Shown: positions 10,466 to 56,228 of the stretch, piece after piece | Numbering within the stretch: the first letter of the stretch is position 1 | How the letters are laid out: every line of letters starts with the position of its first letter | Source: Acidobacteriota bacterium | Lineage (GTDB): Bacteria > Acidobacteriota > UBA6911 | Assembly: GCA_031271905.1 (NCBI GenBank) | Contig: JAISUT010000014.1 | Coordinates: 1 to 64,000 of the forward strand | Reading direction: 5' to 3' | Length of the DNA: 64,000 nucleotides | Notes under the pieces: model-generated | Databases searched by the model: none | What the model was told of the DNA's origin: nothing | The model's input: the letters and a program-made list of their open reading frames with translations, nothing else | Made by a program: the position numbers and the translations under genes

Positions 10466-10528
10466 GGGAGCCTCTAAAAAGCTCGCAGACAAGGCGCAAC
10501 GCAGCGTCCGGGGTTTTTAGAGGCTCCC
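10466..10528. repeat. Dispersed palindromic repeat, copy 1
   Basis: The outer arms are GGGAGCCTCTAAAAA and TTTTTAGAGGCTCCC, and the core reads CTCGCAGACAAGGCGCAACG and on to CCGGGG. The same element occurs at 63192-63252 in this orientation and at 16364-16418 and 47854-47914 in the other. It lies directly after the etf terminator, between genes. Confidence 0.85.
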
Positions 10529-16363: not shown

Positions 16364-16418
16364 GGGAGCCTCTAAAAACCCCGGACGCTGCTTGTCTGCG
16401 AGGTTTTTAGAGGCTCCC
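16364..16418. repeat. Dispersed palindromic repeat, copy 2 (short core)
   Basis: The arms GGGAGCCTCTAAAAACC and GGTTTTTAGAGGCTCCC are intact. The core (CCGGACGCTGCTTGTCTGCG) lacks about eight bases present in the other copies and is in opposite orientation to copies 1 and 4. It lies just upstream of the GH3 start codon, so it could form an RNA hairpin in that leader. Confidence 0.85.
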
Positions 16419-46524: not shown

Positions 46525-47142
46525 CTAGGTGTTTTTCACGATGATCGACTCCAAGACGTTGGCGACGTCTTCCGCTTTGTCGGTCGCAGCCTCCAGCGTC
46601 TCGATGATCTCCTTGCGCTTGATAACCTCAATGGGGTCTTTGACATGGTCGAACAGGGCGGCGATCGCGGTCTGGCGATGCTGGTCCGCCTCGTTCTCCA
46701 GCCGGTTGATCTCGATGCAATGCGCGATGACGTTGTCGCTGTTCCTGAGTACGGAGACGGCTTCGCCCAACTCCTTCGCCTGGCTCAGCAGGACGGAGCA
46801 GATTTCCGGAACGGCGGTGATCGGCTCCTTGATCTTGTACAGGACGATGCACTTCGCCACGCTGTCCATCAAGTCGATCACGTCATCCAAGGCGGAGCAG
46901 AGGCGTTGGATGTCCTCGCGGTCGATGGGGGTGATGAAGGTCTTATTCAGTTCGTCGATGACATGGTGCGTCAGCGCGTCCCCTTTGTGCTCCAAGTCTT
47001 TGATTTTTTGCGCCAACGGGGCTTGATCCACCGTTGGCGTGCCCAGCATGGTCTGCAAAAGCTGCGCGGCTTCCAAGATGTGTACCGTCATCTCACTGAA
47101 GATATTGAAGAACTTCTCATCTTTTTTGAAAAGTTGCGCCAT
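46525..47142 (-). CDS. DUF47 (PhoU-like) family protein
   Basis: The protein has 205 residues and is all-helical. It shows the family pattern FFNIFSEMTVHILEAAQLL, IKDLEHKGDALTHHVIDELNKTFITPIDREDI, LCSALDDVIDLMD and INRLENEADQHRQ. The E/DxxxD clusters are the metal-binding motifs shared with PhoU. DUF47 proteins regulate or assist PiT-type phosphate transporters; here the partner is an SSS symporter. A strong promoter is visible at 47234-47262. Confidence 0.9.
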   Translation of the reverse strand: MAQLFKKDEKFFNIFSEMTVHILEAAQLLQTMLGTPTVDQAPLAQKIKDLEHKGDALTHHVIDELNKTFITPIDREDIQRLCSALDDVIDLMDSVAKCIVLYKIKEPITAVPEICSVLLSQAKELGEAVSVLRNSDNVIAHCIEINRLENEADQHRQTAIAALFDHVKDPIEVIKRKEIIETLEAATDKAEDVANVLESIIVKNT

Positions 47143-47233: not shown

Positions 47234-47262
47234 ATTATATTCATTGGACGCACCTTGTTCAA
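47234..47262 (-). promoter_or_regulatory. Sigma-70 promoter for the DUF47-symporter operon
   Basis: On the minus strand TTGAAC (47262-47257) and TATAAT (47239-47234) are separated by exactly 17 bases. The -10 is perfect and the -35 differs from TTGACA at two positions. Transcription would start near 47227, giving a leader of about 85 bases before the DUF47 start at 47142. Confidence 0.75.
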
Positions 47263-47340
47263 GTTTAAAAAATATCATAAATTGTATGAATTATATGAAT
47301 AATAGGCTTTATATGAAGGCAAACCCTTTGAAATTAAAAC

Positions 47341-47431
47341 GTTGCCCCTGCACCTCTTTCACAGGAATTTGCAAATTATCCACAGCTTTTGTGAATAATC
47401 GTGGATAATTCAGTTTTTTAACAGGGGCAAC
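47341..47431. other. DnaA-box cluster within a 10-bp inverted repeat (possible origin or DnaA-controlled site)
   Basis: Three DnaA-type boxes lie within 33 bases: TTATCCACA at 47376-47384 (plus strand, perfect), TTATTCACA at 47390-47398 (minus strand, perfect) and TTATCCACG at 47400-47408 (minus strand, one mismatch). They are flanked by GTTGCCCCTG (47341-47350) and its inverse CAGGGGCAAC (47422-47431). An 80-base stretch of about 79 percent A+T adjoins on the left and could serve as an unwinding element. No dnaA or dnaN gene is in the window. Confidence 0.65.
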
Positions 47432-47446
47432 CAATTGGAGGAACAG

Positions 47447-47560
47447 ATGTTTTTATCATTTTGCATAAAAAATGTGCATTCGCTTCGCCCCGACGGCGAC
47501 CGTGCCCGAACCTGCCGGGGCGAGTCTCGGCAACTCGTTCACACCGCTATGGGTTGGTAG
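47447..47560 (+). CDS. Possible 37-residue small protein
   Basis: A strong ribosome binding site (GGAGGAACAG) precedes ATG 47447. The frame encodes 37 residues beginning MFLSFCIKNVHSLRP and stops at 47560. It overlaps the 3' end of the opposite-strand gene at 47539-47766. The product has no recognised motif and half of it is polar and Arg-rich. The spacing of the site is the only real support. Confidence 0.3.
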   Translation: MFLSFCIKNVHSLRPDGDRARTCRGESRQLVHTAMGW

Positions 47561-47766
47561 TTTTCCGTCCAAAAACCGTTTTTCGCGACCACACTTTCTG
47601 ACATGGTGCCGACTGTGGCGAGGTTGTTGGCGGATGGAATGAAAGGCGTGACGATCAGCATTCGGTTGCGAGTGCGTTTTTCCGCCACCGCTCGGGAGAG
47701 CAACTGCCCCAGGTCGCGGCTTTCCAAAGTTTTCCCTTTTATGACAACGTGATAGACCTTGTTCAT
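47539..47766 (-). CDS. Uncharacterised 75-residue protein near lexA
   Basis: The product begins MNKVYHVVIKGKTLESRDLGQLLSRAVAEKR and continues with a short hydrophobic strand (RMLIVTPFIP). It looks like a small soluble alpha/beta protein; no family is recognised. ATG 47766 has AAGGAAAGG about nine bases upstream; ATG 47775 is too close to that site. It lies downstream of lexA on the same strand, with a dispersed repeat between them, so co-regulation by LexA is possible but unproven. Confidence 0.6.
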   Translation of the reverse strand: MNKVYHVVIKGKTLESRDLGQLLSRAVAEKRTRNRMLIVTPFIPSANNLATVGTMSESVVAKNGFWTENYQPIAV

Positions 47767-47853: not shown

Positions 47854-47914
47854 AAAACCTCTAAAAACCCCGGATACTGCGTTGTGCCTTGCCTGCGAGG
47901 TTTTAGAGGCTCCC
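47854..47914. repeat. Dispersed palindromic repeat, copy 3
   Basis: The arms are AACCTCTAAAAACC on the left and GGTTTTAGAGGCTCCC on the right; the left end has lost the GGGAG part. The core CCGGATACTGCGTTGTGCC and on to CTGCGAGG matches the other copies with a few substitutions. It is located between lexA and the 75-residue gene. Confidence 0.8.
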
Positions 47915-47977: not shown

Positions 47978-48580
47978 TCAATACTTGCGCATCACACTAA
48001 CAACCACTCCTTGAAGTTTCACCCGTTGCGGCTCCACCACTATCGGGGCTAGGGTCGCGTTGGCGGGCTGGAGGCGAATCCGCCCGTTTTCCGGGTAATA
48101 TTTTTTCAGGGTGACGTTCTCGTTGTCGATCAACGCCACCACCGTTTCTCCCGGGACGGCCGCCGTTCGCGACTCCACCACGACGTAATCCCCATCTTGG
48201 ATATGGTCTTCGATCATGGAGTCCCCTTTCACTTTGAGCACGTAACAGTCATTCCGTCGGGAAAGGAAGAACTCGGGAATGGGCATGGTTTCAGAATTGG
48301 AGATCGCTTCGATGGGATGTCCTGCCGCCACATAGCCGAAAAGCGGAAGGTTTTGAACCCCCGCCGTGGCTCCGGCGGACAGTTCGATGGAGCGGGCGCG
48401 GTTGGCGTCTCGTCGAAGGTATCCCCGGCTCGACAATGCTTCTAAATGTTTATACACCGCATTCAGCGAGGCGAACTTGAAGTGTCCGGCGATCTCCTCC
48501 ATGCTCGGGGAATAGCCGTTGCCGTCGATAAACTCGGTGATGAAATCCAGAATTTCTTTTTGCCTCTGCGTCAGTTTCAT
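47978..48580 (-). CDS. lexA: LexA repressor
   Basis: The protein has 200 residues. A winged-helix DNA-binding domain (about 1-65; LTQRQKEILDFITEFI, GYSPSMEEIAGHF) is joined to an S24 peptidase domain. The self-cleavage bond is Ala86-Gly87 in YVAAGHP. The catalytic serine is S121 (VKGDSMIEDHI) and the lysine is K159 (NVTLKKYY). It represses the SOS genes until RecA triggers cleavage. A good promoter with an inverted repeat lies just upstream, fitting autoregulation. Confidence 0.96.
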   Translation of the reverse strand: MKLTQRQKEILDFITEFIDGNGYSPSMEEIAGHFKFASLNAVYKHLEALSSRGYLRRDANRARSIELSAGATAGVQNLPLFGYVAAGHPIEAISNSETMPIPEFFLSRRNDCYVLKVKGDSMIEDHIQDGDYVVVESRTAAVPGETVVALIDNENVTLKKYYPENGRIRLQPANATLAPIVVEPQRVKLQGVVVSVMRKY

Positions 48581-51595: not shown

Positions 51596-51847
51596 ATGGC
51601 GATAGAAGATATTTTTGGGTATGGGGGCGGAGATTCTTTTTTCGACACAAACGGATATTTGGCATACGTGAATCCGACCGACATCGAGGAGGCCACGCCG
51701 GAAAGCGCAACACCCGTCGTGCAGTCAACCGAGACGACAGGAGCGGACGGCAAGACGTTTCTTTGCGAGTTCCGCTTCGATTGGACTGAAATCATCTTGG
51801 CGGTGGCCGTCGCGGTGGCGGTCGGCTACGCGATAGGAAAAAAATGA
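51596..51847 (+). CDS. Small protein with C-terminal membrane anchor
   Basis: The product has 83 residues: an acidic, polar N-terminal part (FGYGGGDSFFDTNGYLAYV, then a Thr/Glu-rich stretch) and a C-terminal membrane span (IILAVAVAVAVGYAIGKK) ending in lysines. No family is recognised. Its stop overlaps the next start (ATGA at 51844-51847). The setting between a tiny membrane peptide and a beta-rich protein resembles virion-protein gene clusters; this is inference only. Confidence 0.6.
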   Translation: MAIEDIFGYGGGDSFFDTNGYLAYVNPTDIEEATPESATPVVQSTETTGADGKTFLCEFRFDWTEIILAVAVAVAVGYAIGKK

Positions 51848-52668
51848 TCGTGACAGTCTACACAAGGCAACCCCAACCGCATTCCGTCATAGCCGTTGAC
51901 GACGCCGACTTCGCCGATGTGTGGTTCGGGACGTTCAACAACGACCAGATTCTGTTTCCACAATTCAGCTACGCCGGCGTGATGGACACGTCCAGGTTGA
52001 GATGCTTCTTCGGATTCACGAAGATAATGAAAGACCTGAACGGGGATTTTATGAACACCACGACATTACGGAACAAAGTGAATACGTCGGGATACCAGGC
52101 GTTAGCTTTCAACGTGACAAGTACTTCAAGTGGTACAGCTTTTACTTACGCTATAATAAGAACAGTGACGGGAAATTTCGATTATCTATCTACCGCACAG
52201 CCATATGATTTGAGTACGATATTTGAAGCACGGAGTGAAACGACTCTTGCTCCGACGATCAACGAATTGAACGCCAAGCTTTTTATTAACGGCGTCTTAT
52301 ACAGGTCTGGACAACAAAGCAGCTTGGCGACTCAAAACCAAGCAAGAGATCCGCAGGTGATTTCAAGCATTCCCGACATCTACATGACGAACAGCGGAAC
52401 GTCAACAGTGCCAGCGAATTCGTCATTGTTATGCGTCCGCGACGTGGTTTTGCGGTGGTATGACGACCTGGGAAACTCCGAGGAATACCGAGTGATTCCG
52501 AACATCAAGGAAAAATCGTTCAAAGTCAGAAAGAGGATATTCCAAAACGAGAAGCTTATGTCAACTTCCTATTTCCCGACCGGGATCACGGCCGTCAACA
52601 ACGTGTTCGCGATCAGTAGATTCGACGACCTGTCACTCGGTAACCTGACCTACATGGAGACTCTATGA
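51844..52668 (+). CDS. Uncharacterised 274-residue beta-rich protein, possible viral capsid-like
   Basis: No signal peptide or membrane span is seen. The sequence is rich in short strand-like segments, Thr, Ser, Asn and aromatic residues (for example SLLCVRDVVLRWYDDLGN), unlike cellular neighbours. It overlaps both adjacent genes by four bases. Base composition is clearly lower in GC than the flanks (about 37-47 percent in sampled lines). The length is close to that of small double-jelly-roll capsid proteins, but no motif proves this; a phage tail or adhesin role is equally possible. Confidence 0.6.
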   Translation: MIVTVYTRQPQPHSVIAVDDADFADVWFGTFNNDQILFPQFSYAGVMDTSRLRCFFGFTKIMKDLNGDFMNTTTLRNKVNTSGYQALAFNVTSTSSGTAFTYAIIRTVTGNFDYLSTAQPYDLSTIFEARSETTLAPTINELNAKLFINGVLYRSGQQSSLATQNQARDPQVISSIPDIYMTNSGTSTVPANSSLLCVRDVVLRWYDDLGNSEEYRVIPNIKEKSFKVRKRIFQNEKLMSTSYFPTGITAVNNVFAISRFDDLSLGNLTYMETL

Positions 52669-52958
52669 GAGCAGAGATGTACAACAACGATTTCATAATC
52701 AACTGCGAAAACGACCACGAGGCCGGCAAGATCGAAGTTTTCCTGGACTCCATCGGCGTCAAGACCATCAAGGCGCCTGAGAAATACGACGAGGCCATCA
52801 TCGACTTTTACGGCAATATCAAGGCGCAGATCGAGGCGGCCGCTTCGGCGGACGAATCCAGGGCAAGGGAAGAGGGCGACCTAGAGGAGACCGCAGAAGC
52901 CGTCAAAGCGCCGCAGAAGACCGTTCTTCCACCCTACGCGACCAGCAATTGGCGGTAG
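52665..52958 (+). CDS. Uncharacterised 97-residue acidic protein
   Basis: The start overlaps the previous stop (ATGA). The N-terminal half looks like an alpha/beta fold (FIINCENDHEAGKIEVFLDSIGV). The C-terminal half is Ala/Glu-rich and probably helical or disordered, ending YATSNWR. No family is recognised. It is the last of four tightly packed frames in the low-GC island. Confidence 0.6.
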   Translation: MRAEMYNNDFIINCENDHEAGKIEVFLDSIGVKTIKAPEKYDEAIIDFYGNIKAQIEAAASADESRAREEGDLEETAEAVKAPQKTVLPPYATSNWR

Positions 52959-55478: not shown

Positions 55479-56228
55479 TCAGAGGCTGGCTTTGGCGAAG
55501 TCTGTCCGTCCGTCCTCGCCCCGCATCTCGACGTCCACGCACATCGAGTGGAGTCGCGAGCGGAGACGGACGCCGATGCGGTCGGCAAGGGTTTCCTCAC
55601 CGGGTCTGGAAGGTGCGTCGAGGTAGTTGGATGTGAAAAAGGTGAGTTTGCTTTTGACGTAGCGGTTGTTGATGATGTGATAGAGCGTGTCCCGCACCCA
55701 ATCCGTGACCTTGTTGGCGCCCAGCTCGTCCAGCACCAGCACCTTGGCGTCCATCACGGGGCGCAGGACATCCAACTCCGACGTCTGCGCGATGGGATTC
55801 CAACTGTCTTGGATTTCCTTCAACAGGTCGCTGAAATTGTAAAACAGCCCCACTTCGCCGGTCTGGGCGATCAACTGCCGCAAAAGCGCCACCGCCAAGT
55901 GGGTCTTGCCGACGCCGCACGGCCCCATGAGCAACAGCCCGACGCTCTTTTTGGGGTCGTCTTCCTTGAGCAGTGGGTATTGGCGCAGGAACCCTTCCAC
56001 CTGGAGTTTGGCGTTTTTATGCGACACGTCCCTAAACGTCTTGAATGATTCGAGGTCGCAGTTCTGGTAGCGCTTGGGGATGTTCGCCGACGCCTGTAAC
56101 CGCGCCATGCGCTGCTTTTTCCAGCAGTCGCAGCGTCGGACTGCGCCCGCAACCTCCGTCGGCGCCCACCCCGACCCGCCGCAGGTCGGGCAGATGTCGT
56201 CCACATTCCGCTCGTCCATATCCGTCAT
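55479..56228 (-). CDS. DnaC/IstB-like AAA+ ATPase (helicase-loader type)
   Basis: The protein has 249 residues. The N-terminus has a four-cysteine zinc-binding region (CPTCGGSGW, CDCW). The ATPase core shows Walker A GPCGVGKTH, Walker B LVLDELG and the sensor region FFTSNY. This architecture is common in primosomal DnaC/DnaI-like loaders encoded away from transposons. IstB of IS21 elements is less likely because no istA or transposase is nearby. It begins 42 bases after the HtrA-like gene ends, on the same strand. Confidence 0.85.
   Translation of the reverse strand: MTDMDERNVDDICPTCGGSGWAPTEVAGAVRRCDCWKKQRMARLQASANIPKRYQNCDLESFKTFRDVSHKNAKLQVEGFLRQYPLLKEDDPKKSVGLLLMGPCGVGKTHLAVALLRQLIAQTGEVGLFYNFSDLLKEIQDSWNPIAQTSELDVLRPVMDAKVLVLDELGANKVTDWVRDTLYHIINNRYVKSKLTFFTSNYLDAPSRPGEETLADRIGVRLRSRLHSMCVDVEMRGEDGRTDFAKASL

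Follow-up and report, generated by a model that had tools for sequence, protein, structure and literature searches.

A DnaA-box cluster downstream of lexA

The window, i.e., the whole stretch of 64,000 nucleotides that we analyzed, lies on contig C52 of a 3.4-Mb Acidobacteriota genome in 67 contigs. Close to 47.4 kb, lexA and a small open reading frame (ORF) are followed by an intergenic element of ~103 bp, beyond which an AT-rich tract precedes a leftward DUF47 gene (Table 1). The small ORF has a conserved start and follows lexA genus-wide, without a Pfam match. Three DnaA boxes make up the right third of the element and, on the minus strand, the order is left module, IHF-like site, and boxes.

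Table 1. Positions of the element, its parts and its neighbors in the window
Feature	Position	Strand	Remarks
DUF47/PhoU_div gene	46525-47142	-	box I side of element; neighbor in window and L008, not in G005
AT-rich tract, outside element	47261-47340	-	promoter-like sites TTGAAC-17-TATAAT and TTCATA-16-TATAAT facing DUF47 gene
Whole element, ~103 bp, intergenic, DARS-like	47375-47478	-	full-length match to model R1 in own genome (66.5 bits, E 6.8e-18)
DnaA box I TTATCCACA	47376-47384	+	inverted vs boxes II and III
DnaA box II TTATTCACA	47390-47398	-	5 bp from box I; most relatives read TTTTCCACA
DnaA box III TTATCCACG	47400-47408	-	1 mismatch; 1 bp from box II
CCTGTTAAAAAAC, conserved in genus	47413-47425	-	reads as degenerate reverse DnaA box; CTGTGAAAAAC in G019
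IHF-like site CCAA-TTGG-TTG	47428-47438	-	1 mismatch to TCAAN4TTR; perfect in 6/9 family members
Left module TGCACATTTTTTATGCAAA, imperfect inverted half-sites, DnaA-box-like	47460-47478	-	phylum form TGCACA-N5-TGTGCAAA
Small conserved ORF, KGRTLESR motif	47539-47766	-	between lexA and element
lexA	47978-48580	-	TIGR00498 193.9 bits, cut-off 110.95; upstream neighbor of element in genus

An earlier note on this DNA had described two perfect and one near-perfect DnaA boxes in mixed orientation. A rescan confirmed this, and the triple proved to be conserved across the phylum. The three-box core at 47376-47408 is the sole such core in the 64-kb window, in which one-mismatch DnaA boxes number 45, compared with 26.6 ± 5.5 in shuffles. 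Two further observations of that note, an enclosing 10-bp inverted repeat (GTTGCCCCTG/CAGGGGCAAC, 47341-47350/47422-47431) and ~79% A+T over 80 bases (78.8% when measured), also held. Neither the repeat nor the AT-rich tract was conserved in the relatives compared, and we took the repeat as incidental; the tract, judged from its sequence, looks like the promoter of the DUF47 gene.

Across the phylum, the approximate consensus of the element is TGCACA-N5-TGTGCAAA-N2-G ... CAA-N4-TT ... TTTCCACAGG-TTTTCCACA-N5-TGTGGAAAA. The IHF-type motif TCAA-N4-TTR is enriched in its middle, with a mean of 1.67 mismatches vs 2.64 ± 0.11 in mononucleotide shuffles, and, besides an IHF-beta equivalog (above the NCBI cut-off), the genome of the window encodes an IHF-alpha-like protein and other members of the HU/IHF family. 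Two other identities were considered for the left module. An XerCD dif site was rejected for TGCACAT..TTATGCAAA on half-site spacing, and a LexA operator was rejected for the TGCACA palindrome, since the motif present at the lexA promoters is a TTCACC/TCACC direct repeat. This repeat, TTCACC...TCACC at the lexA promoters L088-L117, is the putative LexA operator of the clade, and in the genus AAAGGTGAA is found near the start codon.

Other features of the window were recorded in passing. A dispersed repeat (CTAAAAACCCCGGA with flanks) occurs at 47861-47874, 10507-10520, and 16372-16385 of the window, at L001:918-931 and 2377-2390, and in L004 and L217-L219; it has many copies in the genome, including one between lexA and the small ORF and others on both sides of dnaA. 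At 55479-56228 on the minus strand lies a DnaI/DnaC/IstB-like ATPase (PF01695, 55.8 bits) that also matches the DnaA model and is possibly a helicase loader or a relic of an IS21 helper. Two ORFs without a Pfam match (51844-52958) lie in or by a region of unusually low G+C (0.489 at 52-54 kb).

Distribution, gene neighbors and box spacing

Searches of relatives with the region and with lexA placed the ~103-bp element on the 3' side of lexA in each of the eight genus loci containing that gene. The element lies 3' of lexA in several further families of the class too, and its internal spacing of 80-82 bp is kept even where the intervening sequence has changed. R1, a sequence-only model with rough E-values, detected the element in 111 of the 297 Acidobacteriota genomes that were sampled (37%; E <= 0.001; ~0.3 expected by chance), 14 of the 297 having supplied the model. 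Matches were mostly near full length, with one to three copies per genome, and included class members without an adjacent lexA. The hit L007 (G012:C48) was rejected as an element, its 25 matching bases lying within DNA that seems to be coding.

Second copies were present in four genus members, and in G005 and G006 these sit beside an ATP-grasp acyl-CoA ligase-like gene. The genome of the window yielded no second copy at E <= 0.1, and none beside its own acyl-CoA ligase-like gene. Elsewhere the element adjoins genes for methylmalonyl-CoA mutase, rmuC, priA, and others, which are mutually unrelated among those examined, and in G005 it sits between convergent genes. Thus, what is conserved is the form of the element and not a target gene beside it. 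None of 16 phylum-level copies checked was spanned by an ORF of at least 80 aa in a simple non-overlapping set.

We then compared the spacing of the boxes. A 5-bp spacer between boxes I and II, with box I inverted, is shared by the window copy and nearly all phylum copies, while the spacer between boxes II and III varies: it is 1-2 bp in genus copies beside lexA (1 bp in the window), 3 bp in second copies within the genus, and 3 bp in most relatives outside it. Of 20 phylum-level copies from other classes, 16 had spacers of 5 and 3 bp (5/3), with box I inverted, in their best-scoring three-box core. This is the arrangement of the DnaA-reactivating sequence DARS1 of E. coli, TTATCCACT-N5-TGTGGATAA-N3-TGTGTATTA, and of the DARS2 core, which was located by the same scan and whose 35 bp are bracketed exactly by published DARS2 deletion primers (PMC4585315); the comparison with DARS was made only after the element had been seen.

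When all spacers were allowed, neither 200 kb of E. coli sequence including oriC nor the datA region yielded a three-box core, and two such cores, both with spacings other than 5/3, came from 1.84 Mb of background DNA from Acidobacteriota. Run on 9.7 kb of E. coli DNA, R1 ranked the DARS1 and DARS2 cores second and third, behind a further DnaA box close to DARS2. Across the class, the spacing of inverted box pairs has two peaks, one at 2 bp, where several pairs lie upstream of dnaA, and one at 5 bp, where most belong to the element.

Alternative readings of the cluster

The earlier note had proposed a possible replication origin at 47.4 kb, and the AT-rich tract adjoining the boxes would suit one. 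However, dnaA, dnaN, and clusters of DnaA boxes all lie on contig C49, with four boxes in the dnaA-dnaN gap, and the GC skew of the window is flat, without a change at 47.4 kb. We also examined the GC skew of relatives, taking 20 samples of 20 kb at even distances along each genome. In G150 and G151, each a single contig with dnaA at its start, the skew turns at dnaA (p < 0.0002 and p ~0.01, respectively), far from the copies of the element; those of G150 are at 0.91 and 1.14 Mb on a contig of 2.32 Mb, and that of G151 is at 4.97 Mb on one of 7.48 Mb. The skew of G026 and G046 was below the permutation null and uninformative. Some genomes hold several copies of the element. The cluster thus departs from oriC in GC-skew minimum, in adjacency to dnaA and dnaN (usual, not universal, for an origin), and in a conserved AT-rich unwinding element. 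Given the location of dnaA and the skew in relatives, we rejected an origin at 47.4 kb, to which we give next to no probability.

A function in RNA is scarcely more credible. If the element were a non-coding RNA or a 3' structure of an mRNA, with a fortuitous likeness to DnaA boxes, its fixed length and the folding of the single sequence (stronger than that of shuffled sequences, z ~-3 to -3.9) would find an explanation. Against this, the consensus fold has 6-7 pairs with zero compensatory changes, there is no Rfam match, and mismatches in the stem formed by boxes I and II persist in the genus while each half is still a good DnaA box; a structured RNA was rejected for want of covariation, and we regard it as very improbable. 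Control of a nearby gene, with DnaA or another factor acting on DUF47/SSF or the lexA operon, is improbable too. DnaA does regulate genes elsewhere, DARS1 itself lies just upstream of uvrB, and promoter-like sites adjoin the element. The DnaA-controlled promoter suggested in the earlier note is nonetheless unlikely, given that the element is preserved in form between convergent genes 3' of lexA as well as next to unrelated genes; since the G005 copy sits between convergent genes, it is not a promoter of DUF47. The main rival, unlikely in our view but to be taken more seriously than any of these, is a datA-like or plain titration site, at which DnaA (with IHF) would be sequestered or its ATP hydrolyzed, restraining initiation. 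A cluster of DnaA boxes outside oriC with an IHF-like site would fit E. coli datA as well, B. subtilis has box clusters outside oriC, and one element of G150 is near the terminus. In datA, however, the IHF site is flanked by essential boxes of a single orientation, whereas box I of the element is inverted and its IHF-like site lies beyond box III; moreover, the box spacing agrees with DARS, and no such inverted 5/3 core occurs in the datA region. Of the titration alternative raised earlier, a DnaA-box element outside oriC stands, while the box geometry fits DARS rather than datA.

A proposed DARS-like element and its relation to known systems

DARS cores are defined in PMC5742627, and the assembly of ADP-DnaA and the release of ADP at DARS1 and DARS2 are described in PMC5742627 and PMC4245941. 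By analogy with these sites, we read the cluster, with moderate confidence, as the core of a DARS-like element outside oriC, which would promote the exchange of ADP for ATP on DnaA together with an IHF-type bender. Following the E. coli model, boxes I and II would be occupied by ADP-bound DnaA in a head-to-head arrangement and box III by a third molecule; an IHF-type protein would bend the adjacent arm and trigger the release of ADP, and DnaA would then be reloaded with ATP. The element would therefore govern how much active initiator is available and would not itself start replication. The window copy has three boxes outside oriC, an opposed box I, and a 5-bp spacer between boxes I and II, as DARS does, but its spacer between boxes II and III is 1 bp instead of 3 bp, for which reason we describe it as a DARS-like variant and have not filed it as DARS. 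Two further points tell against the DARS reading: R1 detects the element in only 37% of the sampled genomes, and the chromosomal position varies, one G150 copy being at the terminus.

More tentatively, Acidobacteriota may carry one to three orthologous or convergent copies of DARS per genome, with an extra TGCACA-N5-TGTGCAAA module and an IHF-type bender, and DARS-type control might then not be a gamma-proteobacterial speciality. According to PMC4245941, the DARS2 core is specific to those gamma-proteobacteria that are related to E. coli, and Fis, which is required at DARS2, is gamma-proteobacterial; DARS-like sites have been described for V. cholerae, and B. subtilis is reported to be without IHF, datA, and DARS (PMC13220808). 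If the proposal is true, the cycle that recharges DnaA from ADP to ATP would either be ancient or have evolved twice, each time with 5/3 geometry. The element would also offer a second, distant lineage for testing DNA-driven recharging of DnaA, DARS having been described in E. coli and related gamma-proteobacteria, and the sequence model would give an annotation target in many genomes that now have no annotation there. Our literature search, which covered papers available without subscription, found none joining DnaA-reactivating sequences and Acidobacteria, and the novelty is therefore provisional.

Within these Acidobacteriota, the nearest comparison is with the trios of boxes upstream of dnaA, which are probably oriC or serve dnaA autoregulation. 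They consist of the same boxes and show the 3-bp tandem spacing in several genomes, but their inverted pair is spaced at 2-3 bp, not 5. Conserved dnaA-upstream boxes with a 2-bp inverted spacer were observed at G005:C19:78324, G006:C64:11120, G008:C223:19243, and G012:C1:74741.

Compared with E. coli DARS, the element belongs to another phylum, its IHF-like site is only ~20 bp from the core, its left module is without a recognized counterpart in DARS1 or DARS2, and its activity is proposed by analogy. In common with both, it has box I opposite boxes II and III across a 5-bp spacer and, in most Acidobacteriota copies, 3 bp between boxes II and III. DARS2 carries its IHF consensus on the box III side, as does the element its IHF-like site. 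DARS1, in the bioD-uvrB gap, is likewise intergenic and similar in length (101 bp vs ~103 bp), and it lies beside an SOS gene, uvrB, as the genus copies of the element lie beside lexA.
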